A stretch of DNA of 64,000 bases, taken from the NCBI GenBank assembly GCA_029204225.1, contig MU832112.1:22800-86799 (forward strand). The letters run 5' to 3'. This stretch comes from Diphasiastrum complanatum (taxonomy: Eukaryota; Streptophyta; Lycopodiopsida; Lycopodiales; Lycopodiaceae). Both the position numbers and the translations under genes were made by a program. The notes under the pieces were generated by a model. It searched no databases and was not told where the DNA came from. It saw nothing but the letters and a program-made list of their open reading frames with translations. Shown here piece after piece: positions 1,862 to 47,122 of the stretch; position 1 is the first letter of the stretch, and each line of letters starts with the position of its first letter.

Positions 1862-1966
1862 GGGTGGAGAGAAGAGAGAAAGAACATTAATTAATCAAAA
1901 AGATTTCAAAACACAATATATTAAAAAATATAAACAAAATTATTTTTTGAAATAAAAGATAATTTC
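1541..1966. repeat. Gene-free stretch with GT and GA microsatellites
   Basis: It holds a (GT)n run at about 1660-1682 and a (GA)n run at about 1788-1858 in AT-rich sequence. I see no coding signal. Confidence 0.8.
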
Positions 1967-2813
1967 TTATTCCCAAAAATCATCGAGGTCATTTACATTT
2001 TTTTCCTTTTCTTGAGTAGCCACTATAGTTTCAAGTGGCACCTCTTCTACAATTTCCTTGACTATCGTAACCACATTATAATCTTGAACCAAGACATCAG
2101 CAAATTCTCCTGTATCGCCTACTTTTCCGCTAGCAGGAGGTTGGGGTTCCTTGGACAAGAGAATTATTGAGTCCTCACTATCTAAATTCTTTCCCATCTT
2201 AGATAGTTTATCTAGAAAAATTGAAAGAGATTTCATTTTTATTCTTACAAAATCAACTAAATTAGGATCTAAATCTACTGTAGCAACATGTCTGTCTTTC
2301 TGAACAGCACATGCGCTTGTGGTGCCGCTACCACTAGATAAATAAAAAATCCAATCAGTTGGGTGAGAAAAATATCAATTAAATGATTAATTAATTGTTG
2401 TGGCTTTTGGTAGGGACAAGCCACATAACCCGTCATTGGATTCTTCAGCTTCTTGGTCATGGCTGGATACTAATAAAAAATGGAGTTAGACATTCATTTC
2501 GGTTGCTCAAAGGATAAAGCCTCTAGCACTCTTCGAAATCTTGACAATTTAACCTGTCACAAGGGCTTCTTGAACTTTCATAAATAATTTATGCTTGTAT
2601 TTAAAAAGTGTAATTGTTAAAAATCCAACAAAATCATGAAAATCACTTTATTACAAAAAGTAACATGAAAACAAATATTTAAATTATGACTATTACTTTT
2701 GAAATTCTTTTTTCATTTATGCTAGAGAAAGTTGACCATTGGCAACTCTAGAAAGAACACTTATTATCAGCTCTGAAGAGCTAACCCCTTGCATGTTCTT
2801 CTACTCTGATATT
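1967..2813 (-). pseudogene. Degenerate copy of the DNA amino-methyltransferase-like gene
   Basis: On the minus strand it follows the same order as the larger copy at 9.24-12.29 kb: a segment equivalent to 10.5-10.85 kb (about 2813-2490), then NPMTGYVACPYQKPQQ (about 2440), a SGSGTT motif (about 2320-2337) followed in an open frame by a VDLDPN-like acidic end of strand 2, then the C-terminal acidic tail (2236-1967). The part equivalent to about 10.86-11.79 kb, which would hold the catalytic xPPY region, is missing. A frameshift lies just before SGSGTT. The 89-residue tail aligns with the other copy without gaps. The motif order and the lysine-proline lead-in to SGSGTT resemble the C-terminal half of N6/N4 methyltransferases; the assignment is inference. 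It abuts copia G at about 2814. Confidence 0.55.
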
Positions 2814-4893
2814 TTGCAGCAAACCTGGCCACTGGGAACGTGAATGTTTCAAGAAACAGAAGGAGATGGAACAAAGAAAAGACAAAGGGCAAGTGGAAAA
2901 TTACGCTGATCAACATCAATTTGATGATTATTATTATGAAAACAATTATACTGATCAACATCAATACGATGATGATCAATATGAAGATAATACAGGTGAG
3001 AGCTCAAAATTGTTCATTACAGCATTAATGACAAGTGATGAAACCAAGAATACCTGGTACATTAATAGTGGTGCATCCAAGCACATGACTTCAAGGAAAG
3101 AGTGGTTTTCAGAACTCAAGGAAACTCACAATGGTGATGAAGTTGGACAAGCCGATAGTAAAGGAGTTGGAGTGGTACCAGTGAAGTTAGCCAGCGGAAA
3201 GATAAAGCGGATAAGCAATGTGCAATATGTACCTGGCTTAGCTAACAATCTACTACCTGTTGGGATGATGGCTGATCCACAAGTCAAGGTTGAGTTTGAC
3301 AGCAACAAATGTCTTGTCAAAGACATCAAGAATCACTACAAAGTGATTGCTACATGAGCTAGAGTCAACGGGAATCGACTCTACAAATTAAATGCGAGAT
3401 CTTTTGCTCAAGCTATGGTAAGCATGGTTGATAGTCGAAGCGATATTTGCAATCAACGATTTGGTCATATTAGTGCTCAAAGTTTACAGATTCTCAAAAG
3501 ATGTAATCTAGTTATAGGATTGCCTGATATTTCTTTTGAAGGAGAAATTTGTGAAGGTTGCATTTTGGGAAAACAACACAGAGAGAGGTTTTCCAAAAGT
3601 GGAGCAAGGAGAGCCAGTGACATACTAGATTTTGTCCACAATGATCTATGTGGACCTATGCAGACTAGATCTCTTAGTGACTACTATTACTTTATCACCT
3701 TCATTGATGATTATAGCAGATGCATTTGGATTTATTTCATAAGCAAGAAATCAGATGGTTTTGCTAAGTTCAAGGAATTCAGGGAATTAGTTGAAAAGCA
3801 AACAGGATGTTGCATCAAAACTTTGAGATCTGATGGAGGTGGTGAGTATTTTTTGACAGAATTTATTGATTTCTTCAAAGATTAAGGGATCAAGAGACAG
3901 ACTACAATACCTTATTCACCACAGCAAAATGGAGTTGCAGAACGAAAGAACAGATCTATTGTTGAGATGGCCAGGGCGATGCTCAAAAGCAAGGGTATGC
4001 CAAACACCTTTTGGGCAGAAGCTTGTAGCACAGCTACGCACATCCTGAATCGGTGTCCTACAAAATCCGTGGAAGGTAAGACACCTCATGAAGCTGTTAC
4101 CGGAAAGAAACCTAATATTTCTCATTTGAGAGTATTTGGTTGTGATGCTTATGCTCATATTCCTGATGAGAAACGAAGGAAGTTGAATGCAAAAGCTATC
4201 AAGTGTATTTTCTATGGATATGATGAGAAGGCCAAGGCATACATGATGTATGACACAAGTGAACAGAAGCTTGTAATTTTTAGAGATGTTATGTTTGACG
4301 AGATGGGCCAAGGTGAACAATCTGAAGTAATCACTGAACCTTTTGATGAGGGAGCGAAAGTACAGGTCAAGAAGGAAGTGGATTTTGCTATAGAAAATCC
4401 ATTGGACAAAGGCAAGCCTGATGCTGAAATTCCCAAGAGAGTACCTTAATGGTACTTATCAGTCACAGATGGTGCAAAGAAGGGAGATACTCCCGAATCT
4501 AGTGAGCAGGGAGAGCTTAGAAGATCAAGTAGAAATCGAAAACCTCCTGCAAGATTAGAGATGAATCTAGCCCTAATGGGTTTTGTGCTCAAGGCTCAAG
4601 AACCAAAAACTTTTGATAAAGCAAAGGAGCACGAGGAGTAGCGTGAAACAGAAATGGAAGCTATATCACAAAATAGGACTTGGAACTTGGTTGAGCTACC
4701 GGATGGTAAGATGCCTATCACTTGCAAATGGATATACAAGATCAAATATGGAGCTGATGGAAAACTCAACAAATACAAAGCACGGTTGGTTGCAAGAGGA
4801 TTTTAGCAGTAGGAAGGTATTGATTTTGAGAAAACCTTCGCACCCGTAGCTAAGATGGTAACTATACGTTTTGTCATTGCTATTTCTACTTTC
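2814..4893 (+). pseudogene. Degenerate Ty1/copia gag-pol (element G), no LTRs
   Basis: Reading left to right: the end of a CCHC zinc knuckle (HWEREC), an acidic Asp/Tyr-rich linker, a protease whose active site reads WYINSGASKHM with Asn in place of the catalytic Asp, the pre-integrase region (RFGHISAQSLQ, CEGCILGKQH), the integrase core (HNDLCGPM, RSDGGGEY, NGVAERKNRS), the VFGCDAYAHIP region, and the start of reverse transcriptase (CKWIYKIKYGADGK) as far as AKMVTIRF. In-frame stops interrupt at about 3357, 3884, 4447, 4640, 4805 and 4811; several read TAG where a Gln codon CAG is expected. The YVDD region and RNase H are missing. It is old and inactive. The left side joins the methyltransferase-like repeat, the right side a piece of another copia family. 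Confidence 0.85.
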
Positions 4894-5011
4894 TATGTAG
4901 GTGAAGCAATTCAAAAGCAGGAATGGATCCAAGCCATGGATCATGAGCAACAAGCACTCATCAGGAAGAACACTTGGAGGTTGGTGGAACTTCCAAAAGA
5001 CAAGAAAGAAA
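4894..5011 (+). pseudogene. Fragment of copia family C reverse transcriptase start, joined to element G
   Basis: The 118 bases match 35,647-35,755 of element C (GEAIQK-EWIQAMDHE and TWRLV-LPKDKK) with few differences, but not the sequence expected next in element G. The two pieces join at non-equivalent points of pol, since this is the N-terminal reverse transcriptase segment placed after a later segment. It is a chimeric junction, perhaps from template switching or illegitimate repair. Confidence 0.75.
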
Positions 5012-5348
5012 TCTTTTTTTAGAAGCCAAAACATGTAATCATCGACACAGATTGTTGATCTGTATGTCAAAATTCGACACAGCTAAAATTGTGTCGGATT
5101 TTGACATCCTACTAGGATGCCACCTCAGTGAAAGTTTGCCACATGGCACCCATGTCGGATGTCGAAATTCATATATTTAAACTGTCGAATTACGACATGC
5201 AATTTCAAAATATTTTCCCGCCAGCTACCGGAGTTTACAGGGGTTCAATAGGGATGTCAGATAGCGACATGTCGATTTTTGACATTTTATGATATTTCTC
5301 AAAATCCATCGCAACCACATGTCGGAATGAGCGCGTTTTGTAGTAGTG
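5012..5348. mobile_element. CACTA (En/Spm) element end with subterminal repeats
   Basis: The region ends in TTTTGTAGTAGTG (5336-5348), whose complement starts CACTACTACAAAA, the typical CACTA terminus. Inside lie many copies in both directions of short motifs around TGTCGGAT and TTTTGACA (for example at 5090-5107, 5150-5170 and 5260-5290). Arrays of such motifs are the transposase-binding subterminal repeats of CACTA elements. No transposase coding is present and the opposite end was not found nearby. A related motif array lies at 57.6-58.1 kb. Confidence 0.7.
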
Positions 5349-6015: not shown

Positions 6016-8176
6016 TTAACAACCAATGTCGCTTCTTATTTGATGCCTTTGAGTCCTCCTTGAAAGTTGCTTTGGAGTGGCATCTCCACCTTCATCCAAG
6101 AAATCTTGCACATCATGATGATTAGTAGGCACATCAACATTATCATCAATATTGACAACATTGGAAGCCTTCTCTTCATGAAAGATGACATCCCTACTTA
6201 TGACAACTTTTTTCGTAGAAGGAATGTACACTTTGTAAGCCTTGCTTACTTCACTATAGCCAACAAACACACCCTTCTTTGATGAAGGATCTTCTTTAGT
6301 TCTATCATCAAGAGTGATGTTGACAAAACACATACAACCCAAAATCCTACAATGCTTGACACTCGGCCTCCTACCATAGAGGACCTCAAAGAGAGTCTTA
6401 ACAAAGAAGCACTTGTCTTCCTGTTACATAGATAAGTAGCACATGCTAAAGCTTCCCCCCAATAGGACTTAGCAAGATTAGAATGTAGTCTCATTGCCTT
6501 GGCACATTCACAAAGGGTTCTATTCTTCCTTTTTGCCACTCCATTCTGTTGTGGAGTCCTATAACTAGAGTACTCTCTCTTAATCTCATGTGCTATGCAA
6601 AAATCTTTGAGCTTATTTGAAGTGTATTCCCCTCCATAATCTGATCTCAAGAATTTGATCTTTGTATTGAATTGCTTTTCCACTTCATTCTTAAACTTGA
6701 CAAATGTAGCAAACACTTCATCCTTGGTTTTAAGAAGATAGACCCAAGTATACCTACTAAAGTCATCAATAAAAGTTGCATACATTTTTGCCCCACCATT
6801 GCTAGTTGTACTAAAAGAATGAAGATCCGAATGCACAAGTTGAAAAGCTTCTTTAGATCTAGAAGTAGATCTAGTATAAGCAAGTCTATGAGATTTGGAA
6901 AAGGCACAATGTTCACAAAATGTATTATTTGCAACAAGACTTTTAGGGAGGCCAAGAGCATGCTCTTTCTTTGCCATTACCTCCAAATATTTGAAGTTGG
7001 AATGGCCCAACCTCTTATGCTAAATTTTTTGGTTTGTCAATTGTTCCCTAGCCATACATCCTTCATTCTTAGAGATCACACATGCATCAAGTATGAAAAA
7101 ATTACCATGGCTTCTTTCTTTAGCAATCAAGGATCCACACTTATCAAAAAAGCATTTCCAATGAATTCAACATCAATCCCCTTGTCAATCATTTGACTAA
7201 CACTAGGCAAGTTCTTAGTGATTGAAGGAATGTACAATACATTTTCAAGATTAGCTTTCCTATTTGTTGAAAGAGAAATAGGAATTGTGCCTATTCCTTT
7301 GATGTCACCTTGACCATCATTTGCAGTATAGATGATGTTGCTCTCTCCCTCACAAGACAATAAGGATGAAAAGTATTTCTTATGTCTTGTCATGTGAGAT
7401 GAGGCTCCACTATCAATCCACCAAGGATCATTCCCATCTATATGTGCAAGTAAATTTGAAGTCATAACAAGAGATTCAGAAATGCTATCCTCTTCTTCAT
7501 CTATTGCTAGATTTCCTTGCCTCTCACCTGACTTATCTTTCTTTCTAAAAGAAGTAGAAGAGGAGGAGGAAGAGTGATCATCATGATCCAAGTTACCATC
7601 TTCGGACCATTTCCCTTTGCCTTTACCTTTGCCTTTTACTTTGCCTTTTGTGAAGAAAGCCTCTTCACCTCCACCTTGCAAAGATGCACCATCAAGCTTT
7701 GATTGCAACCTATTTTCTTCAGCCAATAAGATTTCCTGCAAGTCAACCACACTTGGCAAGACTCTTTGAATGGCAAAACTATGCACAAGGTTAGCATGTT
7801 CATCTAGCAAACCATTCAATATAACTTGGACTATTTCACCAAATTTTATGCTTTCATCAATGCATGATAGATCATCACTTGACTTAACCCTCAAGACAAA
7901 TGCATGAGCACTTTCTCCCTCTCTTTGTCTACTAGAAAATATTTGCCTCCTTAGGGTCAATACCCTAGATGTGGACTTTGATTCAAAGAGCTTCTTCAAG
8001 GCATTCCATGCCTCACTTGCACTTTGACTTTTACCAACTTCCTTGAAAAGTTCATTGGTAACATTCATTTTAATGATATGAAGAGCCCTTTTAGCCTTCT
8101 TATCAAACCTTTTCTTGCTCTTGAACTATGGGTGGTCTCTCTTCAGTTCCTGCAACTATGTCCATGAGTTCATTCG
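6016..8176 (-). pseudogene. Degenerate copia gag-protease-integrase (element F, family C relative)
   Basis: On the minus strand: the end of the gag N-terminus (about 8170-8070), gag and protease (8068-7127), integrase (7010-6246) and its C-terminal part (6342-6016). Gag matches element C closely over the EAWNALKKLFESKS and LRRQIFSSRQREGESAHAF segments and the GKGKGKGK stretch, but the CCHC zinc knuckle present in C is deleted. The protease keeps WWIDSGASSHMT. Integrase keeps RSDYGGEY and NGVAKRKNRT. Frameshifts lie near 7100 and 6300. Reverse transcriptase, RNase H and both LTRs are absent. The right end joins repeat R at about 8177. Confidence 0.85.
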
Positions 8177-8177
8177 T

Positions 8178-8274
8178 TGCCACATTTGCTTAGTATAAAT
8201 ATATCTTCATATTTTTATAGTTTTAAGAAGCATCGAAGCTTTTTGATTAATAGATCATCTAGCATTGAATAGTT

Positions 8275-8362
<88 letters not shown>

Positions 8363-8800
8363 CCTGCGAGCTTGAACACTCCTGAGCATTCTAGCTCACT
8401 TTTTTGAGTTGTTTAGAGATTGCTATTGCAGTTATTGCTTATCAACATTACGCTTAATTCAGACTTTCATTTTAGCTGTTCAGAGATAGCTTAGAGTACG
8501 CGGCTTCGATCCACAACTTATTGTACTCATTTACTTCTGTTTTGCTTTCATACTAAATCAATACTATCTTCTTATTGCATTCAGGTTCGTCTAAGAATGT
8601 ATGCGTTGCTTCAGTTCTTCGCGACTAATTATTTGGCTGATAATTCAATGCATCACTGTTTGGATACGTAATTATTGTAGTACTGATGATTTCAAAATTA
8701 GTTACTATAAGATCGAACGTGATTTCTATCACTATTGTTTTGTTCAAAATTGATAGGCGTAGTTATGCATGAAGAAAGAAGAAGATAGTTTCTTCCGCTG
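8178..8800 (+). repeat. Repeat R, probably LTR and leader of a copia element
   Basis: About 500 bases are repeated in inverse orientation at 26,820-27,245, and its last 75 bases (8712-8788) recur in direct orientation at 27,415-27,489, next to copia E. It contains a TATA-like AGTATAAATATA near 8190 and a long (CT)n run. The association with copia E suggests it derives from that family's terminal region, but no TG/CA ends or primer site were identified. Confidence 0.5.
8277..8359 (+). repeat. (CT)n microsatellite
   Basis: A perfect CT run of about 41 units inside repeat R. The inverse copy at 27.1 kb has only a short GA run at the same point, so it expanded after the copies separated. Confidence 0.95.
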
Positions 8801-8926
8801 CGCACGATAATTTTTCTTTCTTGTCGTTCAAATTCTTTTTATTCGAATCTTATTTGACCTATCTTTCATAAACTTCTTTCCAACACCCACGAGGTCGGCG
8901 GATTGAACCACTTAACTCGATTCCAG

Positions 8927-9030
8927 TGCAAACTCTAGGTTGGCGTGAGGCCTGAGGCAGGAGTCCAAGAAAAAAAATGCACAAACTCCAAGTTGGCGTG
9001 TGGTGTGAGGCGGGTCTCCCAGAAAAAAAA
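8927..9030 (+). repeat. Two-copy 51-bp tandem repeat with A-rich ends
   Basis: Copies begin at 8927 and 8978. Both contain AAACTC, TTGGCGTG, TGAGGC and end in a run of eight A. The rest of 8801-9240 shows no gene. Confidence 0.7.
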
Positions 9031-10638
9031 TTATTTAAGGACCCTAGTCAGAGCATAACTCACTTCATTTGCAAATTTTGAAGCACAAACCACAGATTCC
9101 TATAGTTATTTGCTATCAAATCTTACTTTGATAAAGCTCTTGTGACTTTGGTATGTAATGATAAATCATGATTTGAATAATGTTTATTGACATGTGTTCT
9201 ATGCTTAGCATAGTGTCTAACTAATTTTAAAATTTCTAGCAACTTGCAAGAAAAAGATCTCTTATTGAAATTGAGTAGTCCTATGCTGAGCATAACTTAT
9301 ATAAACTTCTTTGCTCATTATGCTATAAACCTGTATTTTGTTTGTGTTCAGAGCATGAAGCAATGCATAAAATTAGTGCTAGCTGCTATTGCGGAGAGGA
9401 AAGATCTGGTATATTCATTATGGAGTGCTAAATCTGTATCTATGGGACCTCGCAAGCCTACTTCTACCACTGCTTAGGTCACAAAACCCACTATTGAAAA
9501 TGCCAAGGCCACCGTAAGTGCCAGTCACCCAAAAAAAAAAAGGATCACACAATATTTCTGAATCCTCACCCATGAGACCCAAGTCCCGCCCAAAGACCAT
9601 GGCTACACATCGCCATAAGACCATTCCTTCAGCTGGAAGCAAGAAACATGTATCTGGACCCGCTATGTCTTTACTTGGTGCTTCCATCCGCCCCCTCCAA
9701 GACACCTCTGAAATTGCTGAATTAAGAGATGAAATTCATAAAACAAAACAAATTAGAGAAACAACTTCAATTTTGGATATAGAGCAATGTGATAGGCCCC
9801 ATGTTGATCCAATAACTGGAGATAGGCCAATGGAAGAAAGAGAACCTAACGAAACACATGTACATAGTCTTAAAATAAAATTTAAAGACCATACCCAGGC
9901 CATTGCAACGCCTTTTGTTGTTTTGGTTGACCTCTCGGAATGCAACGATGTTGCAAATTTTGATTTTTCAGTTTTAGATTCATTTTTTTGTTCTTGGGAG
10001 CATACATAGTTTACAGGCCTGAAAACAATTATCCCAAAAATATCTTCATATTCCCTCTTTTTGAATTGTTAGTGCCATTGCATTTGTTGGCCTGATAGTG
10101 GATGAAGCAAAATTGCTCGTCCGGGATCATAATATTGATCAAGACTAACCTAGGAAAATGACCGTAATACAAGGAATTTGATTTTTTCACAAAGAATATA
10201 TGAGAGTCTCCAAAGTTGGAGATGTGAATCAATTGGAGTCGCTTTCCGTAGTGGCTAGGTATTTTTTTTTATGTTTGGCTTGGAATGCTCTGTTCAAAAT
10301 TTATGTTAGTAGACTCAAATTTTGAGATTTATTTTAATATTTCTTAAACTGCTTTTAAATAATTAAAATCTCTTTTGATTTTAGCTATGGGCCCTTGTCG
10401 ATAAAACTTTTGACAAGTGGAAAATTTTTCAATTAAAAGGCCAACCTGCTCAGGGTGCCTCAAAAGGAAAAAAGAAAGTTGTTGTCTCTCAAACTCTGAA
10501 GCCAATCCCTACACAAATGGGAATATCAGAGTGGAAGAACATGCAAGGGATTAGCTCGTCGGAGCTAATAATAAGTGTTCTTTCTAGAGTTGCAGATGGT
10601 CAACTCTCCCTTGCAGAAATGGGGAAGGAATTTCAGAG

Positions 10639-10743
10639 GTAATATTCATGATTTAAATGTTTCTTTTCAAGTTTTTTTTTTTTTTATAAAATGATTCTCA
10701 AGATTTAGCAAGATTTCTAACAATTACTTTTTTTTAAATGCAG
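10639..10743 (+). other. Probable intron of the methyltransferase-like gene
   Basis: It starts GTAATATT after CAGAG, is T-rich, and ends TTTTAAATGCAG. The reading frame FQR continues into HKLFMKVQEAL after removal. Confidence 0.6.
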
Positions 10744-10890
10744 ACATAAGCTGTTTATGAAAGTTCAAGAAGCCCTTGTGATAGGGTTAAACTGTCAGGA
10801 TTTCGAAGAGTGCCAAAGGCTCTATCCTTTTTGAGCAGCCGAAACGAGGCTTTAAGTCCCTTTTTGATTTTGTTTAGAGACATGATATTT

Positions 10891-11060
10891 ACTTCACCCA
10901 TGCTAAGCATAGCTTTTTCTTTTTCTTTATGTCTAATCTCCTACGCTAAGCATAGCTTCTTTTGTATCTCCTTCTGTTTTGTCTCTTATGCTAAGCATAG
11001 CTTCTTCTTTGTCTTTTTATGTTTTATCTCCTATGCTAAGCATAGCTTTTTCTTTTTCAG
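10891..11060 (+). repeat. Four-copy, about 45-bp repeat containing a TATGCTAAGCATA palindrome
   Basis: Copies of TGCTAAGCATAG sit at about 10,901, 10,944, 10,989 and 11,034, separated by T/C-rich spacers of similar sequence. It lies inside the methyltransferase-like gene, where it may form part of an intron. Single copies of the same motif occur at 9199, 9281 and 26,379. Confidence 0.75.
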
Positions 11061-11510
11061 TCCCCCGAAGATAAGAAAAAGTCCTTCCAGAGTAAGTCAA
11101 AAGACACATTTTGAAAGCGAAGGCAGAAAAAAAGGACAGGGAAAGACTAGCACGGGGTGAGACCATTGCGGAGGAGGATCCTTTAGAGACCTACCTACCC
11201 AAAAATGTCGATGATTAACCATGCCTTTACACAGTTAAGGAGGGCGATTGTAGAGAAATTTCAAAATTCTTAAAGAAAAGGCCTTACACACTCTACGTTG
11301 CCGATATACCATATGGATTTCATATGAAGGAATCACTAAATGATGATTCTCCTTTCAGATTCACTGAAATCCATTAGTTTCATGCAAGGGTTTCTTGAAA
11401 TCACATCATCTCCTATTTGGAGAGTTGTTATTTTTCATTCCTCTTGGCAATCAGCTTTAGTACAGAAAGCTTTATTAACTTTTTGTAACGCGGGAATAGA
11501 AAATGTTGTG

Positions 11511-11645
11511 GTAAGTCTTTTAAGTTTACGAATTATTGATTTATATAATAATTCAAAGTTTTATTTTAAATTTAGTATAAGCAACAATGTTAACTAAAAC
11601 AATTTGAAATTTTTTATTTATTTTAGCTGTAATGTTCTTTTTCAG
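11511..11645 (+). other. Probable intron of the methyltransferase-like gene
   Basis: Starts GTAAGTC, is strongly AT-rich and ends TTTTTCAG. It separates the helical segment ALVQKALLTF from the NEIEYITIGYYS segment. Confidence 0.6.
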
Positions 11646-12287
11646 GTACAAGCCCAATGTCAGAAACTTGGGAGGAGCGCGACTTTGCAATGAAATAGAA
11701 TATATAACCATTGGTTATTATTCCTTGGACGGCAAGCGCTCGATGCTTCATTACAACACCTCCAGACTGACAAGTTTTGGTAGCTTGTTCCAATATCCAG
11801 TCGTGACAAAAAAACTTAAAAATCCAATGACGGGTTTTGTGGCTTCTCCTTACCAAAAGCCACAACAATTTATTAATCATTTAATTGATATTTTTTCTCA
11901 CCCAACTGATTGGGTTTTGGACTTATTTAGCGGTAGCGGCACGACCTTCCAAAAGGCAGGTATATTGCTCTAGTAGATTTAGATTCCTATTTAGTTGATT
12001 TTGTAAAAATGAGAATGAAATCTCTTTCGGTTTTGCCAAATGAACTGGCTGAGGTAGGGAAGAGTTCAGACAACGAAGACTCAGTAATTCCCTTGTCCAA
12101 AGAACCCCAACCTCCTGCTAGCGGGAAAGTGGGTGATACAGGGGAGTTTGCTGGTGTCCTAGTTCAGGACTATAATGTTGGTACAATTGTCGAGGAAATT
12201 GTGGAAGAGGTGCCAGTTGACACTATAGTGGCTCCTCAAGAAAAAGAGAAAGATGTAAATGACCTTGATGATATCTGGGAGCAATAA

Positions 12288-14926
12288 ATTCTCTTTTATT
12301 TTAGGAAACAATTGTGTTTATATTTTTTGAAATATTGTGTATTGAAATATTTTTGATTAATTTAACGTTTCTAAATTTGTTTGTATTAAAAAGATAGATT
12401 TAGCAGTTTTTAATGATTTGAATATTAGCAAAACTAAACTTGCAACGAATTGTCAGGTTTTAAATATTTTAATTTTTCGTTGTGTTTTTATAATAAGTTT
12501 TTGAAAATAATTGCATTTGCAATCATTTAATGTTTAAATATAAGTAAAGATTTAAATACTGATTAAAATTTTTGTCAGAATTTAAAAAATATTTTTCTTA
12601 ATACAAGAATTGTAATTTAAAAAACTTTTAAAATTAAAAAAAAAATGAAAAACTTTTGTTTAGAAAAGCAAAAAGTTTTATTTTACTTATTCTAGTGGTT
12701 TTGTGTCTAATGATTTTATTTTGAATAGTATTATTATTTCATATAAGCTAATTTGCAGTTCTCTGATTTCGCTTTCCTAGTCACACTATCCCAGGTGAAT
12801 CCTTAAAGAGCTCGCTTTCCCGACCTTATTGATTTTAGAAGCAACGGGGAATGCACCAGAACTAGATTCCCACGGGCAAGGTAGATGCTCCTCTGAATTC
12901 GCTTTCCCATGCTCACTGTCTCATATTTTATGTTTATTTTAAAGTTTTCCTACTTAATTTCCCTTTGCCATTTAGCATTATCATTCTATGTACTTCCATC
13001 TTTCTGTACTTTGATAGGTTTTACATCCTTCATTAATATCAAAAGAAAATCTTCAAACATTAATATTAAAAGCAAGATTTTCTTAATAAAAATCTTCAAA
13101 CACACTTGGCAAATTGTGATTTGTGGGTTCAAGGTTAAAACGTGCCCCCATGCCAACAATATATATATCAGCGGCAAGGTTCAAGGGGAAGCCCGGGTCT
13201 CCCGTTCACTGAGATTCCATTTTATCCGGGTTGTTACTCGTGATCATCATCTGTATCTATTTCTACTATCTACCCATATCTTCTGCCATATCCCGATCCT
13301 TTTATTTCCTCTCTGTCTCTCTCCCTTTCTCAAACTTCCTTTGTAATTACTGTACATACGCTTTGGGTACGAGAACTGCATTGAATGTAAGCAACAGCTC
13401 TCATTCCATCCGGCTTCTCTTTTGTGGGCAGTTTCTGACAGCAGCCTGCAGCTAGTATGGAACCCATGTTGGTGATGCTTTCTGCGGTAATGCCTGTGCT
13501 TCATGCCTTCTACTTCGGTAGCTTCTGGGAATGGATTATTGATGTGTTCTACTCCCACCAGCAGCGATTTCGCCATCAGCTTCTTCGATGAGGGTCCATA
13601 CAATAACGCTTTGAGCTGTGATCGCGAGTTTCGTTACATAGGTGCAGGTTAGACTCTCTGTTTACAGATTGTGGAAAGTTGCTAGCTTCAGGCGGGTCTA
13701 CTTTATGGCAAGGAACGTCTTTTCCGTCCTATTACTATTTCATCACTTTCGAAAGGGAGATTTATTTTACACAACGGGGGATAGAGTTTTGCTTATTTCC
13801 GGCAATAGTGAATGCTTTAAGTTTAATTTATGATCCCGGATCAGCTGTATTGTTCATGTCAATTTCCAATAGTTTCCCTCGTGATTTCTCCAGATGATGA
13901 TTTATCTACTTTTGAAACATGGCCGACTCTCTCCACAGCCATGAGAGAGAACTCCTAGCGGCAAATTCGTTCAAGGTAATGGTGGCTTCCTAAGAATGAC
14001 GAGCAGTAATGACATCTTTGCGTTCAGCGAGAGACCAATATATCCGAGAAATGAAGACGTACTTTGATATCTCCTTGTTATTTGTTATGAGTCGGGAAAA
14101 AGCATTGCAAAGAAGATTTGAACCTGTCTCACGGAATACATATACATTGTGTAAGTTTGTGACAGAAAAGGTTGAAAATGAAAGATCCGAGTAAGACTCG
14201 TCGGTAAGAACAGATATGATGGATGCGAGTTTTGTAAAGAGAGATGTAAGAGGTCATATACGGGCTTTTGTAGAGAAGAAAGTATACAAACTAATATCTT
14301 ATATGTACATATAACTGCAATCAGAAGTCTCAACTATCTTCCAGCCTCATATCAGTGTGATTTTCAGAGATTATCGATTTGCGATCCCTTTTCATTTTTT
14401 TTCTTTCTACTCTCATAAAGTGTTGTGCTCTGTGCTCTTGAGCCATGAAGCATGAAAAACGAAAGATAATTGCAGTAATAGAACATCATTCTACTGCTTG
14501 TGTTTTCCTGTTAGTGTATGATCTATTTTGTTCTTCAAGCCTAAAACTTTTCAGATATTATATGGATCAATCATAAAACTACCTTAGGGCTTTAGCCAAT
14601 GTTAAGCTCAGATCAAAATCTTAATACATTTTGTGTTTGTTGGAAATTTGTGAACTTCGGAAACCTTGGCAGCTTCGGGATTTTCGGCATTCTTCTCTCT
14701 TCGGGATTTTCGGGATTTTCGGCCTTCGCATTTTTTGCAAAGCCAAATTTGCATGATAGGCATTTTTGGGCACTTGTCACACTTTTGTGAAATCAAAATC
14801 AGAGCGTGAATAGACAATGCGATTAGCGGAATGCAGGAAAGCAAAAGTGGACAAGGACAACTAACTAGAAGTAATTAGAGTTAGGATGTTCTTTTAATTA
14901 CTAGAATTTAGATCGGTTGTCTCTCC
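12288..14926. other. No gene recognised
   Basis: The first 450 bases are very AT-rich and resemble the 3' flank of the preceding gene. 12.9-14.3 kb has several short open frames on both strands (for example 12,909-13,346) without recognisable motifs or codon pattern. 14,660-14,740 is a low-complexity stretch built on TTCGGGATTTTCGG. Confidence 0.5.
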
Positions 14927-19378: not shown

Positions 19379-19384
19379 GGTGGG

Positions 19385-22300
19385 TTTTTTGTGGCTGCAA
19401 CAACTTTTTGCTCATAGTGCTTTATTATCTCCTTTCCCTTTTCCAACTCTTGTGTTGCCATCAACTTATAGTTATCAAACTTACACTGGAATCTCGCCAA
19501 AGCTCCTTTGAAAGTATCAACTTTGCGGACCAGGTAGATAATGTTTTGATGAGAAATAGGCCCTGCAATCCCAACAGTCAAATGTAGAAACAAGTCATGA
19601 AACAATCAAGTTGTTTTGTAAATATTACAAAAGGACATAGGGGTATGTAGGAGGCTATCTCTTTCTACTACCACATAATCCAACTACTTCAAGATGCACT
19701 CCTTTTCCAACTATGCCATTTCGAGTTGGCTTTGAAGGATAGACACTTGTTGTTTTTTGTGGCTGCAACAACTTTTTGCTCATAGTGCTTTATTATCTCC
19801 TTTCCCTTTTCCAACTCTTGTGTTGCCATCAACTTATAGTTATCAAACTTACTCTGGAATCTCGCCAAAGCTCCTTTGAAAGTATCAACTTTGCGGACCA
19901 GGTAGATAATGTTTTGATGAGAAATAGGCCCTGCAATCCCAACAGTCAAATGTAGAAACAAGTCATGAAACAATCAAGTTGTTTTGTAAATATTACAAAA
20001 GGACATAGGGGTATGTAGGAGGCTATCTCTTTCTACTACCACATAATCCAACTACTTCAAGATGCACTCCTTTTCCAACTATGCCATTTCGAGTTGGCTT
20101 TGAAGGATAGACACTTGTTGTTTTTTGTGGCTACAACAACTTTTTGCTCATAGTGCTTTATTATCTCCTTTCCCTTTTCCAACTCTTGTGTTGCCATCAA
20201 CTTATAGTTATCAAACTTACTCTGGAATCTCGCCAAAGCTCCTTTGAAAGTATCAACTTTGCGGACCAGGTAGATAATGTTTTGATGAGAAATAGGCCCT
20301 GCAATCCCAACAGTCAAATGTAGAAAGTCATGAAACAATCAAGTTGTTTTGTAAATATTACAAAAGGACATAGGGGTATGTAGGAGGCTATCCCTTTCTA
20401 CTACCACATAATCCAACTACTTCAAGATGCACTCCTTTTCCAACTATGCCATTTCAAGTTGGCTTTGAAGGATAGACACTTGTTGTTTTTTGTGGCTGCA
20501 ACAACTTTTTGCTCATAGTGCTTTATTATCTCCTTTCCCTTTTCCAACTCTTGTGTTGCCATCAACTTATAGTTATCAAACTTACTCTGGAATCTCGCCA
20601 AAGCTCCTTTGAAAGTATCAACTTTGCGGACCAGGTAGATAATGTTTTGATGAGAAATAGGCCCTGCAATCCCAACAGTCAAATGTAGAAACAAGTCATG
20701 AAACAATCAAGTTGTTTTGTAAATATTACAAAAGGACATAGGGGTATGTATGAGGCTATCTCTTTCTACTACCACATAATCCAATTACTTCAAGATGCAC
20801 TCCTTTTCCAACTATGCCATTTCGAGTTGGCTTTGAAGGATAGACACTTGTTGTTTTTTGTGGCTGCAACAACTTTTTGCTCATAGTGCTTTATTATCTC
20901 TTTTCCCTTTTCCAACTCTTGTGTTGCCATCAACTTATAGTTATCAAACTTACTCTGGAATCTCGCCAAAGCTCCTTTGAAAGTATCAACTTTGCGGACC
21001 AGGTAGATAATGTTTTGATGAGAAATAGGCCCTGCAATCCCAACAGTAAAAAATGTAGAAACAAGTCATGAAACAATCAAGTTGTTTTGTAAATATTACA
21101 AAAGGACATAGGGGTATGTAGGAGGCTATCTCTTTCTACTACCACATAATCCAACTACTTCAAGATGCACTCCTTTTCCAACTATGCTATTTCGAGTTGG
21201 CTTTGAAGGATAGACAGTTGTTGTTTTTTGTGGCTGCAACAACTTTTTGCTCATAGTGCTTTATTATCTCCTTTCCCTTTTCCAACTCTTGTGTTGCCAT
21301 CAAATTATAGTTATCAAACTTACTCTGGAATCTCGCCAAAGCTCCTTTGAAAGTATCAACTTTGCGGACCAGGTAGATAATGTTTTGATGAGAAATAGGC
21401 CCTGCAATCCCAACAGTCAAATGTAGAAACAAGTCATGAAACAATCAAGTTGTTTTGCAAATATTACAAAAGGATATAGGGGTATGTAGGAGGCTATCTC
21501 TTTCTACTACCACATAATCCAACTACTTCAAGATGCACTCCTTTTCCAACTATGCCATTTCGAGTTGGCTTTGAAGGATAGACACTTGTTGTTTTTTGTG
21601 GCTGCAACAACTTTTTGCTCATAGTGCTTTATTATCTCCTTTCCCTTTTCCAACTCTTGTGTTGCCATCAACTTATAGTTATCAAACTTACTCTGGAATC
21701 TCGCCAAAGCTCCTTTGAAAGTATCAACTTTGCGGACCAGGTAGATAATGTTTTGATGAGAAATAGGCCCTGCAATCCCAACAGTCAAATGTAGAAACAA
21801 GTCATGAAACAATCAAGTTGTTTTGTAAATATTACAAAAGGACATAGGGGTATGTAGGAGGCTATCTCTTTCTACTACCACATAATCCAACTACTTCAAG
21901 ATGCAGTCCTTTTCCAACTATGTCATTTCAAGTTGGCTTTGAAGGATAGACACTTGTTGTTTTTTGTGGCTGCAACAACTTTTTGCTCATAGTGCTTTAT
22001 TATCTCCTTTCCCTTTTCCAACTCTTGTGTTGCCATCAACTTATAGTTATCAAACTTACTCTGGAATCTCGCCAAAGCTCCTTTGAAAGTATCAACTTTG
22101 CGGACCAGGTAGATAATGTTTTGATGAGAAATAGGCCCTGCAATCCCAACAGTCAAATGTAGAAACAAGTCATGAAACAATCAAGTTGTTTTGTAAATAT
22201 TACAAAAGGACATAGGGGTATGTAGGAGGCTATCTCTTTCTACTACCACATAATCCAACTACTTCAAGATGCACTCCTTTTCCAACTATGCCATTTCGAG

Positions 22301-23434
22301 TTGGCTTTGAAGGATAGACACTTGTTTTTTTTTGTGGCTGCAACAACTTTTTGCTCATAGTGCTTTATTATCTCCTTTCCCTTTTCCAACTCTTGTGTTG
22401 CCATCAACTTATAGTTATCAAACTTACTCTGGAATCTCGCCAAAGCTCCTTTGAAAGTATCAACTTTGCGGACCAGGTAGATAATGTTTTGATGAGAAAT
22501 AGGCCCTGCAATCCCAACAGTCAAATGTAGAAACAAGTCATGAAATAATCAAGTTGTTTTGTAAATATTACAAAAGGACATAGGGCTATGTAGGAGGCTA
22601 TCTCTTTCTACTACCACATAATCCAACTACTTCAAGATGCACTCCTTTTCCAACTATGCCATTTCGAGTTGGCTTTGAAGGATAGACACTTGTTGTTTTT
22701 TGTGGCTGCAACAACTTTTTGCTCATAGTGCTTTATTATCTCCTTTCCCTTTTCCAACTCTTGTGTTGCCATCAACTTATAGTTATCAAACTTACTCTGG
22801 AATCTCGCCAAAGCTCCTTTGAAAGTATCAACTTTGCGGACCAGGTAGATAATGTTTTGATGAGAAATAGGCCCTGCAATCCCAACAGTCAAATGTAGAA
22901 ACAAGTCATGAAACAATCAAGTTGTTTTGTAAATATTACAAAAGGACATAGGGGTATGTAGGAGGCTATCTCTTTCTACTACCACATAATCCAACTACTT
23001 CAAGATGCACTCCTTTTCCAACTATGCCATTTCGAGTTGGCTTTGAAGGATAGACACTTGTTGTTTTTTGTGGCTACAACAACTTTTTGCTCATAGTGCT
23101 TTATTATCTCCTTTCCCTTTTCCAACTCTTGTGTTGCCATCAACTTATAGTTATCAAACTTACTCTGGAATCTCGCCAAAGCTCCTTTGAAAGTATCAAC
23201 TTTGCGGACCAGGTAGATAATGTTTTGATGAGAAATAGGCCCTGCAATCCCAACAGTCAAATGTAGAAACAAGTCATGAAACAATCAAGTTGTTTTGTAA
23301 ATATTACAAAAGGACATAGGGGTATGTAGGAGGCTATCTCTTTCTACTACCACATAATCCAACTACTTCAAGATGCACTCCTTTTCCAACTATGCCATTT
23401 CGAGTTGGCTTTGAAGGATAGACACTTGTTGTTT
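19385..23434 (-). repeat. 368-bp tandem array, about 11 units, with exon-intron-like content
   Basis: The segment GTGGCTGCAACAACTTTTTG recurs eleven times (about 19,390, then every 365-373 bases to 23,072), and a partial unit ends at 23,434. Units differ by only a few bases. Read on the minus strand, one unit has three parts. First is a coiled-coil-like stretch starting QQVSILQSQLEMA. Next is a short spacer beginning GTAATATTTAC and ending GGGATTGCAG. Last is a second open stretch, GPISHQNIIYLVRKVD through KGKEIIKHYEQKVV. The unit length is not a multiple of three and there are stops, so the array does not encode one long protein. The left edge cuts a copia reverse transcriptase; the right edge runs into single-copy sequence that continues the first stretch. 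Confidence 0.9.
22632..22916 (-). pseudogene. Representative 94-residue open frame of the 368-bp unit, unknown product
   Basis: Equivalent frames occur at 19,689-19,973, 20,057-20,338, 20,422-20,706, 21,187-21,444, 21,528-21,812, 21,923-22,180, 22,264-22,536 and 23,000-23,284. The ATG lies in what looks like an intron, so the start is probably not real. From GPISHQ onward about 58 residues form a charged helical segment (FDNYKLMATQELEKGKEIIK). After a run of six A the frame switches to the coiled-coil stretch of the neighbouring unit. I do not recognise the family. Near-identity between units reflects recent amplification and is not by itself evidence of selection. Confidence 0.45.
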
Positions 23435-23710
23435 TGCCTCCTGCACAGCCTTGTCCACCTACTCTGCACGCTTGCTCATAGATCTAGAGGAATCTGATGA
23501 GATCGGTTGATCCATCATATTTTGGCATCTCAAGGCGAGGTGCCCTCCGGAGGCCATGACAGGTACAGATGTTCCATCGGGTCTATCTTGACTGGTCTTG
23601 CTTCAATTTCAATTGGTGCAACAACAATTCTTGGTACATTAGGCATTGAGTTTTTCTTCTTCTCAGTACTGATCTTAGATTCATTCATTAGTGAAGTCCA
23701 AGGATGCTAA
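23435..23710 (-). pseudogene. Single-copy parent sequence flanking the 368-bp array, unknown coiled-coil protein
   Basis: On the minus strand an open frame reads MMDQPISSDSSRSMSKRAE, a TAG, VDKAVQEAK, and then runs without a break into the QQVSILQSQLEMA stretch of the last unit. Upstream, in another frame, NVPRIVVAPIEIEARPVKID is open over about 45 codons (23,690-23,560). It appears to be the 5' part of the gene whose internal exons were amplified into the array. I do not recognise a domain beyond a likely coiled coil. Confidence 0.4.
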
Positions 23711-25289: not shown

Positions 25290-26346
25290 GTTGTGAAATG
25301 CCAAGAACAAAATGTTCCATTACCATTTGTCATGGTATATTTCTATCGTCAACATATTTCTATTGCATAGCAACATTTGCAAGCACTTTCAATTCTTTGA
25401 TGAGCTCAATATGCAGGAGCCGTTGCTTCAAAGCTTCTTGGAGTAGCCGTGAGTTTTCGATTGCGTGAACTGCTTTGTAAGCTTTGCGACAAACGTCCAA
25501 AGCATTTAAAAATACGAATAGGAGTTTTTGTCCGGCCTCATTGTTGCACACAAATAATAATTCCTTTCATCCTTACTGCGTAAAAAGAAGTTTGATCTTA
25601 ACTCTTCAATTTCTCTGATACTGAGTTTCTGTGAGCAACACCATACCTTACGAATCTCAGATTTTGTAATCAACTGTTTTTGACGATTAGTTAAAACAAG
25701 TGAAAATCTCAAGCCTCTCTTGTATTTTCTCTTTTGTTTGGAGTCTGATTTGTAAATTGAACATGTGACACTTGTAGGTGCTTGAACTGGTTAAGAAGGT
25801 GTTGGAATTTTTTGACTCCGAATTTTGGCTCCAATCTCAGGACGTTTTGGACCCTCGGAATGCTCTAATTTTTCAGTAAATATAGCACTTTTAGATTTAA
25901 CACGACAAACATCACTGAGTAGGTCTCCTACGAACATGTGAAAAGCTTGAACGTCGAGGATCAACAAAGTTACGTGGATTTGTTGATTTACTAGAATCAG
26001 TAACCGAGTGAATTGAACCTTGTGAATCCTCATTCAGTGATTCAACTTGTTCAAAAGAACACTGTTCTAATCGTGCAGAGTCTGTATCTGTAGAGGAGGA
26101 CGAGGTTGAAACATTTGACACAAGTTGAGTTACAAGTGTCATTTCTTAAAAAGTACTTACATGAGGAATTTCAGAAGATGAACAGGTAAATGATAATGAT
26201 GCCACATCATTTACGGAAACATGTTGAGAATTAGGAGTGGCTTTGTAAAAAAACCTAACATTGGAAACTTCAGATGAAGATAATGCACTTGTTGCAACAT
26301 ATTGAGTTACAACTACTGGAATGGAGGAGGTAGAACTACTTGACAT
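25290..26346 (-). pseudogene. Serine-rich, frameshifted coding-like region of unknown function
   Basis: Successive minus-strand open frames follow each other: a Ser/Thr-rich N-terminus (26,346-26,146), another Ser-rich piece containing SARLEQCSFEQVESLNEDSQ (26,142-25,912), then a basic segment RFSLVLTNRQKQLI (25,712-25,506) and an alpha-helical piece QEALKQRLLHIELIKELKVL (25,551-25,360). Overlaps between them imply frameshifts or introns. The palindromic motif TATGCTAAGCATA, otherwise seen in the methyltransferase-like gene, lies just upstream at 26,379. That hints, weakly, that this could be a missing 5' portion of the same gene family. No domain is recognised. Confidence 0.35.
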
Positions 26347-26819
26347 CGTAACCGTAAATTTTTTTTTAACTAAGACATATGCTAAGCATATACTTAAAAC
26401 TGAATGGGCTTCACGAACTTACCATTATCCTATGCTGGTCATAGAACAAATAAAAAGCTATGCGAACCTCAATAGACATGAACAAGGAAAATAGCTAAAT
26501 GCAAATAAGAAACAAGCCTAGAAATAAAACGGTCAATTGCAATCAGAAACGACCATGTCTTAAATACTGATATGGGTGCATCCTTAGGGTTAGGGTCAAC
26601 CTAGGATTAGGTCTAGATTAGGTTTAAGTTTAGGCAAGCACGGTCCTAACATAGGCCCACAGTTGGATTATTCTCCTACTAATTGACTAATCGACATTTT
26701 AATCTTCGTCCAACTCATTATCCAAACCTGCAGTTTTCTTTGTGTTTCTACACAGTCTGCATAACTACTCGAGAATCGCTCACAAGTGGATCTGACTTGT
26801 AAATGGTCCAGTAACTACT
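26347..26819. other. No gene recognised
   Basis: It contains one TATGCTAAGCATA motif (26,379) and a decayed form (26,431), and a stretch of TTAGGGTTAGGGT-like words near 26,585 too short to be telomeric. Confidence 0.5.
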
Positions 26820-32089: not shown

Positions 32090-33249
32090 TGGTTGGCTTC
32101 TATTTACAGTAAGTATTCCATTTTTGGTGATATATGGATGTTTGATCAAGTTCTAGCATGATTTTGCATTGCTTTGTTGATCAAATCTTACTAACCTTTG
32201 TTTTGTGAGTTGAACTTGTGGATCAAAAGCATATTTCAGGTCTATTGAAGATCAGAGGCTGAAAAGAAACTATTTTGGATCAGATCATAACACCTAATCA
32301 TTTGTGATTGTGAGGCTTGTGCATATTCAATACTAACAATGTTCTTTTCAATCCTATTGTTGACAATCTCCATTCTTGGATGAACACTCTCCTTAAGTGG
32401 ATGAAACTTCTCCTTAAGTGGATGACAAATGCTCTTTTGAGTGAGTTGTAATTCTCCTAAAGGCTGAGCAAAGCTCCCATTTGGATGAAAGATCCCCTTT
32501 TTTGGGTGAACATATTGTAAGCTCCATTGTGAAGAGCATATTGTAAAGATTGTCATCAATTTTGGCATAAATTTTGGTGTACTTTGTTGAGCATGTAAGT
32601 AACTCTCCTTATGTAATTTGATTGGAGCATTTGCTGGAAGGTGTTAACCATTATGCAAGTGTGTTTTCAGGTTCTTAACAGGTTGAGGAACATTCTCATG
32701 TGAAGTGATCTTAGATCTACATCTAAACACCAAGATTTGACAAGATAGTGAAGCTAGTCTTGTGATTCACTAAGTGTGCTCATTCATTCACCTCTAAATC
32801 TTGTATTTATCACTTGCTGGAGTTTATAAACTTTTAGGAGTGTGGTTTACATGTGGTTTTACAGGTTGAATCAATATCTTAGTGTGTTGATCATATGTTG
32901 ATCAAGTTTGTTCATTACTAGGTAATCTTGGCATCCTAGTTTTGGGTATTTTCTAAGAATGCAAGTAACTCTTCACACCATAACTTGATTTGGTCATTTG
33001 CTGGAAAGTTTGAGAGCTTAAGCAAGAGTGTGTTCAGGTTGGTTTGATTTAGTAATCCATTCTTAGTGTGTGCAAAGTGTTGCATGTGTTTCAATCTTCC
33101 TTTCTATGCTTGGAAACCATCTAGGTTCAAGATAGAAGTGTTTTAGGGTCCTAAATCTTCATAGATCTCTTTATCTATCATTTGTTGAGAGAAAAGTGAG
33201 TGCTAAGTGCTTTAGGACAGAACCTAAAAGTTGAAGAAACATTAGAATC
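32090..33249 (+). other. Untranslated leader of copia C
   Basis: About 1.16 kb between primer site and gag start, with stops in all frames. It contains imperfect GTGGATGA repeats at 32,375-32,510, also present in the copia D leader. Such a long leader is unusual but is shared by D. Confidence 0.7.
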
Positions 33250-36200
33250 ATGGCTTCCAATGGTGGGATCATGCTAGAGTCTAGTGAAAGGTTGAGTTCA
33301 TCAAACTACTCTACTTGGAAAGTGAGGATGGAGTCCTTACTTGAGTTGAATGAACTCATGGACATAGTTGCAGAAATTGAAGAGAGACCTCTCACACTTC
33401 AAGAGCAACAAAGGTTTGATAAGAAGGCCAAAAGGGCTCTTCATATCATTAAAATGAATGTTACAAATGAACTTCTCAAGGAAGTTGGAAAGTGTCAAAG
33501 TGCAAGTGAGGCATGGAATGCCTTAAAGAAGCTCTTTGAATCAAAGTCCACATCTAGGGTATTGACCCTAAGGAGACAAATATTTTCTAGTAGGCAAAGA
33601 GAGGGTGAAAGTGCTCATGCATTTATCTTGAGAGTTAAGTCCCTAAGTGATGATTTAGCATGCATTGATGAGAACATAAAAGATGGTGAAATAGTCCAAG
33701 TTATGTTGAATGGTTTGCTAAATGAACATGCTAACCTTGTGCAAAGTTTTGCCATTCAAAGAGTCTTGCCAAGTGTGGTTGACTTGCAAGAAATCTTATT
33801 GGCTGAAGAACATAGGTTGCAATCAAAGCTTGATGGTGCATCCTTGCAAGGTGGAGGTGAAGAGGCTTTCTTCACAAAAGGCAAATTCAAGGGCAAAGGT
33901 AAAGGCAAAGGGAAATGGTCCAAAGGTGGTAACTTTGATCATGATGATCACTCTTCCTCTTCCTCTTCTACTAAGAACAATAAGTCAAAGTTCAAGTGCT
34001 TTTATTGTGGGATAAAAGGTCATTTTGCAAATGAATGTTATAAGAAGAAAAGAGAGCAAGGAGAGAGGCAAGGAAATCTTACAATAGATGAGGAAGAACA
34101 TAACACATGTGAATCACTTGTTATGACTTCAAGTTTGTTAGCCAACATAGATGATAATGATCCTTGGTGGATTGATAGTGGAGCCTCATCTCACATGACA
34201 AGACATAAGGAATACTTTACATCCTTATTGTCTTATGAGGGAGAAGGTAACATCATCTACACTGCAAATGATGGTCAATGTGACATCAAAGGAATAGGCA
34301 CTATTCCTATTTCCCTTTCAACAAATAGGAAAGCAAATCTTGAAAATGTTTTGTACATTCCTTCAATCACTAAGAATTTGCTTAGTGTAAGTCAAATGAT
34401 TGACAAAGGACTTGATGTGGAGTTCATTGGAGATGCATGTTTGATAAGTAAATGTGGATCCTTGATTGCTCAAGGTAGGAGGCATGGTAAACTTTTCAAG
34501 CTTGATGCATGTGTGATCTCTAATCATGAAGGATGTATGGCTAGGGAGCAATTGACAAACCAAGAAGTTTGGCACAAGAGGTTGGGCCATCCCAACTTCA
34601 AATCTTTGGAGGTAATGGCAAAGAAAGAGCTTGTTCTTGGTCTCCCTAAAAGTCTTGTTGCAAACAATAGTGTTTGTGAACATTGTGCCTTGTCCAAATC
34701 TCATAGACTTGCTTATTCTAGATCTACTTCTAGATCTAAAGAAGCTTTTCAACTTGTGCATTCTGATATTCATTCTTCTAGTACAACTAGCAATGGTGGG
34801 GCAAAGATGTATGCAACTTTCATTGATGACTTTAGTAGGTATACTTGGATCTATCTTCTTAAAAGTAAGGATGAAGTGTTTGCTGCATTTGTCAAGTTCA
34901 AGAATGAAATGGAAAACCAATTCAATACAAAGATCAAATGCTTAAGATCTGATAATGGAGGGGAATACACCTCAAATAGGTTCAAAGACTTTTGTATAGC
35001 ACATGGGATTAAGAGGGATATGTCTAGTCCTAGGACTCCACAACAGAATGGAGTGGCCGAGAGGAAGAATAGAACCCTTTGTGAATGTGCCAAGGCAATG
35101 AGACTACATGCTAATCTTGCTAAGTCTTTTTGGGGGGAAGCTTTAGCATGTGCTAACTATCTATGTAATAGATGGACAAGTGCTTCCTTGGATGGTAAAA
35201 CTCCTCATGACGTTCTTTATGGTAGAAGGCCGAGTGTCAAGCATTGTAGGATCTTTGGATGTACATGTTTTGTCAATATCACACTTGATGATAGAACTAA
35301 AGAAGATCCTTCATCAAAGAAGGGTGTGTTTGTTGGCTATAGTGAAGTAAGCAAGGCTTACAAAGTGTACATTCCTTCTACAAAGAAAGTTGTCATAAGT
35401 AGGGATGTCATCTTTCATGAAGAGAATGTTTCCAATGTTGTTGATGTTGATGTTGATGTGCCTACTAATCATCATGATGTGCAAGATGTCTTGGATGAAG
35501 ATGGAGATGCCACTCCAAAGCAAACTTCAAGGAAGACTCAAAGGCAAAGGGCTAAGCCATCAAGGCTAACCTATGATGAAAAAGGAAAGCAAGTGGTGGA
35601 CAACTCTAACTTTGCTTTTCTTACCTCTTTTGATGAACCAACTTGTGTAGGTGAAGCAATTCAAAAGAAGGAATGGATCCAAGCCATGGATCATGAGCAT
35701 CAAGCACTCATCAAAAGCAACACATGGAGGTTGGTAAAGCTTCCAAAGGACAAGAAGGCAATTGGTTGTAAGTGGATCTTCAAGATCAAGACAAATCAAG
35801 ATGGATCAATCAACAAGTACAAGGCAAGGTTGGTGGCAAAGGGGTATGCTCAAGAATATGGTATTGACTATGATGAGACCTTTGCACCCGTGGCAAAGAT
35901 GGTAACTATTCGAATCCTAATCTCTCTTGCAACTCTTTATGATTGGGATATGTGGCAAATGGATGTTACTAATGCCTTCTTGAATGGTGATCTTGAAGAA
36001 GATATTTACATGGAGCAACCCGAGGGCTATGTTTCACATGATGAGCCTAATCATGTGTGCTATCTCCAAAAGAGTTTGTACGGGCTAAAGCAAGCACCAA
36101 GGAGTTGGTATGCTAAGCTCAATTCCTTCTTACTTTCTCAAAACTTTGTTATGAGTGAGTATGATCATTCTCTCTACTTTAGATTGAATGAAAATGATAT

Positions 36201-47071: not shown

Positions 47072-47122
47072 CCAACTTTTAGATTTATAAGAATCTTCAT
47101 ATCATGTTGGCTCATCTAACAT

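Follow-up and report, generated by a model that had tools for sequence, protein, structure and literature searches.

The window analysed here is a 64,000-nucleotide stretch of Diphasiastrum complanatum DNA (contig MU832112.1, positions 22,800 to 86,799, of an assembly of 1.745 Gb in 5176 contigs), and it contains a broken gene for a bacterial-type DNA methyltransferase. The gene is probably the dead remnant of one side of a mobile element, most likely a DNA transposon, that is present in many copies; where the element is more complete, a gene with the domain DUF7869 lies head-to-head with an intron-bearing gene whose product is a beta-class methyltransferase. An earlier note on the window had proposed a dispersed, intron-bearing plant gene of this enzyme type, perhaps carried by a mobile element. 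That interpretation is supported and is extended here to a two-gene element. Loci and the stretches around them are cited by L numbers and contigs by C numbers.

The window holds two copies of the methyltransferase gene, relic 1 (copy 1) and relic 2 (copy 2), with the following features.

9001..12754, forward strand: element relic 1, a decayed methyltransferase gene with part of the upstream region and most of the 3' region, delimited by blastn
9518..10009, forward strand: upstream protein-coding exon of the methyltransferase gene, from its open frame
10385..10641, forward strand: exon for the N-terminal part of the methyltransferase protein, from its open frame and AG/GT borders
10642..10750, forward strand: GT-AG intron, also retained in the DNA of copy 2
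10894..11058, forward strand: stretch rich in pyrimidines that holds four CTATGCTAAGCATAG-like palindromes, repeated at a spacing of 43-45 bp
11096..11510, forward strand: methyltransferase exon with the GDC motif and catalytic motif IV, followed in another frame by the region of motifs V-VIII
11303-11317, forward strand: DIPYG (motif IV)
11511..11645, forward strand: last intron, GT-AG, from sequence
11646..12287, forward strand: last exon, with the lysine-proline (K-P) helix, S-adenosylmethionine (SAM) motif I, VDLDSY and an acidic tail ending NDLDDIWEQ
11851-11868, forward strand: YQKPQQ (K-P helix)
11920-11946, forward strand: DLFSGSGTT (SAM motif I)
11973-11990, forward strand: VDLDSY
1879..2813, reverse strand: element relic 2, an internally deleted methyltransferase gene lacking the motif IV region, from DNA identity

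In blastn comparisons with other copies from this genome, relic 1 shows ~68-83% identity. The earlier note had placed the gene at 9244-12287; a gene does lie there, but the DNA homology is wider, from 9001 (perhaps ~8893, judged by eye) to 12754. The upstream exon has homologous open frames in L147, L151 and L152 and matched no Pfam family, while the 3' part of the following exon is common to copy 2. The exon at 11096..11510 could be aligned to phage and bacterial enzymes, and matches of the genome copies break at the protein position of the last intron. DIPYG, YQKPQQ, DLFSGSGTT and VDLDSY were all found at the places and in the order first reported, and the GT-AG borders claimed are present at the two introns listed. 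The blocks do not, however, form one readable gene: copy 1 is interrupted by a stop ahead of PCLYTVKEGDC and by two frameshifts, one near 11376 and one just after DLFSGSGTT, the latter leaving VDLDSY in a different frame. The window copies are dead. Near-palindromes of the CTATGCTAAGCATAG type sit inside the gene, and related single copies occur at 9197-9216 and 9279-9298.

By its sequence, the window gene is that of a beta-class DNA amino-methyltransferase. The exon frame at 11608-11973 matches Pfam N6_N4_Mtase (PF01555) at 8.3e-11 (42.7 bits, cut-off 26.7) across profile positions 133-198 of 221 only, and the frame at 11937-12287, run alongside it, gave no Pfam match. All seven genome copies given to the same search match the family, the best at 6.6e-17. 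A 353-residue joined product of copy 1, with X read at most breaks, matches the phage methyltransferase family phrog_67 over residues 48-238 (8e-10) and, among solved structures, CcrM (1.3e-5) and RsrI (0.002). When the plant enzyme is aligned with four phage enzymes, the DC of GDC, D-x-PY, the K-P pair and LDxFxGxGT are common to all, in the permuted order motif IV, K-P helix, FxGxG. Profile alignment with hhalign of seven plant copies (of 10 built, N-terminus trimmed) against 12 bacterial CcrM-like relatives (of 80 loci) gave 99.4% and E 2.5e-21 over 227 columns, with DIPY falling on DPPY at ~23% identity. The class assignment made in the earlier note thus stood up to both the Pfam and the hhalign comparison. 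A predicted fold of the 121-residue last-exon piece (half of the domain), made with 20 bacterial relatives from the 80 loci, had a mean predicted local distance difference test score of 48 and was not used.

The second residue of motif IV is I, where the consensus [DNS]PP[YFW] has P. In a survey of 35 places, 22 of which had the exon and some of which were near-identical, DIPY was found in 15 of the 20 readable ones, the others being NIPY (2), DILY, SPIY and YIPY (1 each). It is also present in L129, whose exon is ~55% identical to that of the window. DIPY is therefore family-wide and not the decay of a single copy; I may be tolerated at this place of the motif. The D that opens DIPY, together with CcrM and RsrI as best solved-structure matches, predicts that the enzyme is probably specific for N6-adenine.

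Relatives outside the plant are distant. A scan of prokaryotes with the plant-phage alignment gave 139 confirmed loci, of which 80 were kept, often alphaproteobacterial as titled, and most full-length matches have ~21-27% identity. Searching by tblastn with the window exon found 8 phage and 3 plasmid records, every one below 60% identity, and a search of the same type with the 353-residue product found 1 phage record. Contamination of the assembly by bacteria, which the bacterial class of the enzyme might bring to mind, can practically be dismissed given this low identity, the intron common to the copies, the Copia-type elements around them (named by sight) and the presence of the gene at 150 or more places, many on chromosome-size contigs. 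A very improbable source, too, is a large DNA virus or Polinton-like element with a methyltransferase that integrated and left remnants. Virus-borne transposons with DNA methyltransferases are on record (PMC3627910, in excerpt), and the mixed plant-phage alignment, used as query, picks up distant relatives of the enzyme on 26 viral contigs. The matches on these contigs are mostly short and C-terminal at 25-42% identity, though; when either the window exon or the DUF7869 protein was the sole query, the viral contigs gave no relative, and no other viral gene was recognised by sight among the listed open frames. The prokaryotic and viral-contig relatives found with the alignment are all of low identity and point to no particular donor of the enzyme.

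Comparison of the two window copies shows how the gene evolved before it decayed. Relic 2 is 82% identical to copy 1 in two blocks (copy 1 10522-10869 and 11794-12362), and in the last-exon part its identity is 81-87% with close genome copies and 73-78% with diverged copies. Both window copies have the intron at 10642-10750, with 79% ungapped identity, and copying thus took place at the DNA level. The ratio of nonsynonymous to synonymous substitution rates (dN/dS) for the pair is 0.20 over 191 codons, against 0.90 and 1.17 in the shifted frames, and 51 of the 92 differences in aligned codons fall at third positions; coding pressure is seen only in the reading frames given in the earlier note. 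The low ratio and the third-position excess indicate that the source genes of both copies were under protein-level selection. By itself, the longest frame in copy 2 (1967-2374) has no Pfam match.

Within the window's own assembly the family is large. Of 1605 first-look candidates 150 were scored, and every one of these matches PF01555, i.e. at least 150 places, near-identical contigs included, and the claim that the gene is dispersed is borne out. Redundancy is present, e.g. L133, L134 and L135, on near-identical contigs, have a 200-nt piece with the same stretch in common. Fifty rows of last exons were reduced to 24 distinct copies, giving 276 pairs, from which 11 with fewer than 80 shared codons and 8 without a finite ratio were dropped. 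The remaining 257 pairs have a median dN/dS of 0.23 and a median dS of 1.04, and 221 of them lie below 0.5. Low dN/dS with dS near 1 across the last exons points to old subfamilies kept under selection. Among individual copies, L158:5216-8953 and L159:5020-8772, on different chromosome-size contigs, are 99% identical over 3.7 kb, and the last exon of L158 is open. Four diverged copies ~4.4-4.6 kb apart at C22:12333634-12347569 resemble a local tandem array and have DMFSGSGTT as motif I.

The repeated unit extends beyond the methyltransferase gene. Nineteen ten-kb stretches around methyltransferase copies were compared, and L145, L147, L150, L151, L152 and L155 share ~90% DNA identity far past this gene. 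L147 (C6) and L152 (C22) are 91% identical across both genes, ~6.3 kb in total, in one 4.6-kb piece (L147 708-5303) and two more reaching 7043. The second gene lies upstream of the methyltransferase gene on the opposite strand. Its protein matches DUF7869 in Pfam at 5e-43, and its other five protein pieces gave nothing above the Pfam cut-off. Pieces of this gene are found upstream and on the opposite strand in 6 of the 19 stretches (L144, L145, L147, L151, L152 and L153), and L155 has a further piece just downstream. L144 and L153 represent diverged subfamilies, ~65-78% alike to the six ~90% stretches in aligned DNA, and the head-to-head layout kept at this distance must be old. Given this co-repetition with the DUF7869 gene, carriage by a mobile element, which had been suggested as a possibility, is very probable.

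A host gene family would be a different account: a bacterial amino-methyltransferase kept for the plant's own epigenetic use, as in Marchantia sperm, with pseudogenes dispersed passively by repeats. The protein-level selection, the introns and the plant precedent of MpDN4MT1a/b would suit it. It is nonetheless unlikely in view of the number of matching places on many contigs, the fact that copies and the DUF7869 gene repeat together as a single long stretch of DNA, with the same right end in several of them, and a median synonymous divergence near 1 among distinct copies. Copy number, co-repetition, shared right end and divergence together fit an element lineage better than a single host locus with pseudogenes.

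The DUF7869 protein carries IDSMDQ, LDNTARENKN and GHTHDQID, which may form a DDE (aspartate, aspartate, glutamate) triad, and we infer that DUF7869 is a DDE-type transposase. In the same genome all 150 scored DUF7869 places match the family, out of 2954 first-look candidates, and none was found in 14 control genomes (prokaryotes, as far as named). Several DUF7869 places have open frames of more than 450 aa. A literature search limited to open-licence papers found no mention of DUF7869. With L131 and L129 omitted, since they repeat L155 and L153, the finite dN/dS values between subfamilies lie at 0.04-0.18 in the DUF part and 0.12-0.13 in the part preceding it, and this protein too has been under selection. 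L147 also contains the transposase-gene side of the element twice in direct orientation (62-1182 and 7830-8952, 94% identical); a reading of these as long terminal repeats was dropped, as the repeated piece holds DUF7869-gene coding sequence.

The window has a relic of this side of the element as well.

25445..26631, reverse strand (coding strand): element relic 3, the N-terminal part of a DUF7869-type gene, from DNA identity

Relic 3 is 80-84% identical in DNA to L145, L147, L151, L152 and the main piece of L155, with a protein match of 72-75%; in-frame stops are present and the DUF7869 domain itself is not included.

Possible terminal inverted repeats of the element are shown only in part. 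A common right end, ...GGTCATCATG, is present in L128, L150, L151, L155 and L162 and, more weakly, in L146. A 28-nt piece of it occurs inverted at 100% identity in L147:7810-7837, at the left edge of the second unit of L147.

Several observations weigh against a two-gene transposon. At the ends, the inverted right end in L160 runs on for 412 bp and may be a rearranged right end rather than a true left end; a terminal inverted repeat was sought around window copy 1 and none was found; and neither a complete element with both ends nor a target-site duplication was seen. The window copies themselves are broken by stops and frameshifts. The DDE role of DUF7869 rests on the reading of three motifs, and a sequence search of the protein against solved chains gave no convincing match (best E 0.47). 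The most N-terminal part of the DUF7869 gene has dN/dS of 0.50-0.67 even between subfamilies, synonymous sites are saturated in several between-subfamily pairs, which have no ratio, and within subfamilies the values spread from 0.4 to 2.3. We read the dN/dS pattern as that of element genes selected in active lineages and decaying once inserted.

The pairing of the two genes is also incomplete. Thirteen of the 19 methyltransferase stretches are without an upstream DUF7869-gene piece, and the 150 methyltransferase and 150 DUF7869 places listed include 3 pairs no more than 10 kb apart, where 0.26 would be expected, and two of the three are head-to-head; as each list samples a larger family, this count lends weak support to linkage. 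Such figures, and the excess of first-look DUF7869 candidates over methyltransferase ones, could reflect a DUF7869 transposon family and a methyltransferase repeat that are independent of each other but often adjacent, or fused in one amplified lineage. This is unlikely, a shade more so than a host family; the order and divergent orientation are the same in the diverged subfamilies (L144, L153) and in L145, L147, L151 and L152, and the 91% alignment is unbroken across the gene junction. A single element with both genes is the preferred reading.

Other repeats surround the relics. At 19384-23435 a 368-bp unit is repeated 11 times in tandem, with 98% matches. Copia-type retrotransposon stretches, named by sight of their translations, lie at 2815-5082, 6016-8125, 33235-37202, 45650-47872 and 50231-54197, with long open frames at 33235-36456 and 51777-54197.

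In the element as proposed, the DUF7869 protein would cut and join the element ends by a DDE-type reaction and the methyltransferase would mark element DNA. For a mobile element to write on plant DNA in this manner would be unusual. The mark could steer transposase binding, with the element ends in the right state for the transposase, could protect transposition intermediates or could counter silencing. It is conceivable, if doubtful, that the family constitutes an undescribed superfamily of plant DNA transposons that combines a transposase with a bacterial-type adenine (or N4-cytosine) methyltransferase, has long been selected, retains some active copies and writes a non-canonical base mark on the genome of a vascular plant. 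The reality of N6-methyladenine (6mA) or N4-methylcytosine (4mC) as a mark in vascular plants is under dispute, and no writer of the beta-class amino-methyltransferase type is known as a standard gene in them. A high-copy element with a long-selected enzyme would be a concrete candidate writer and offer a direct test for 6mA or 4mC in vascular plants; in surveys of base modification such an element could be a confounder. The short list of mobile elements that carry a DNA methyltransferase would gain a DNA transposon with an enzyme of the beta class, and DUF7869, a domain of unknown function, gains a genomic context.

Among known systems, the CcrM/RsrI-type bacterial enzymes share the order GDC, motif IV, K-P helix and SAM motif I, and their catalytic domain aligns; the plant family differs by DIPY for DPPY, by its introns, by a long N-terminal region without Pfam match and by its mobile-element context. 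Mobile elements with their own DNA methyltransferase are described in the excerpts of two papers: DIRS elements carry Dam-like adenine enzymes, Symbiodinium and Klebsormidium retrotransposons carry cytosine DNA methyltransferases (PMC5890265), and virus-borne Mariner elements carry DNA methyltransferases (PMC3627910). The carriers in these cases are retrotransposons or virus-borne Mariner elements, and their methyltransferases belong to other classes; no vascular plant figures in the descriptions, as excerpted, nor does a combination of DUF7869 with a beta-class amino-methyltransferase. In the liverwort Marchantia, sperm 4mC methyltransferases named MpDN4MT1a/b are described (PMC8566409, in excerpt). 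Bacterial-type amino-methylation is thus not unknown in land plants, and the statement in the earlier note that such enzymes are not standard plant nuclear genes needs that qualification. Likened by this description, both are DNA amino-methyltransferases of a land plant, but the Diphasiastrum family is a high-copy repeat beside a DUF7869 gene. The N4CMT of bdelloid rotifers likewise has a permuted N6_N4_Mtase domain with introns in a eukaryote, and its motif SPPY is common to most bacterial N4-cytosine enzymes, unlike the DPPY of bacterial N6-adenine enzymes (PMC8885841, in excerpt). As described there, N4CMT is a host gene (an allelic pair) with a chromodomain that marks transposons, whereas the Diphasiastrum enzyme has DIPY and seems to be owned by the transposon.
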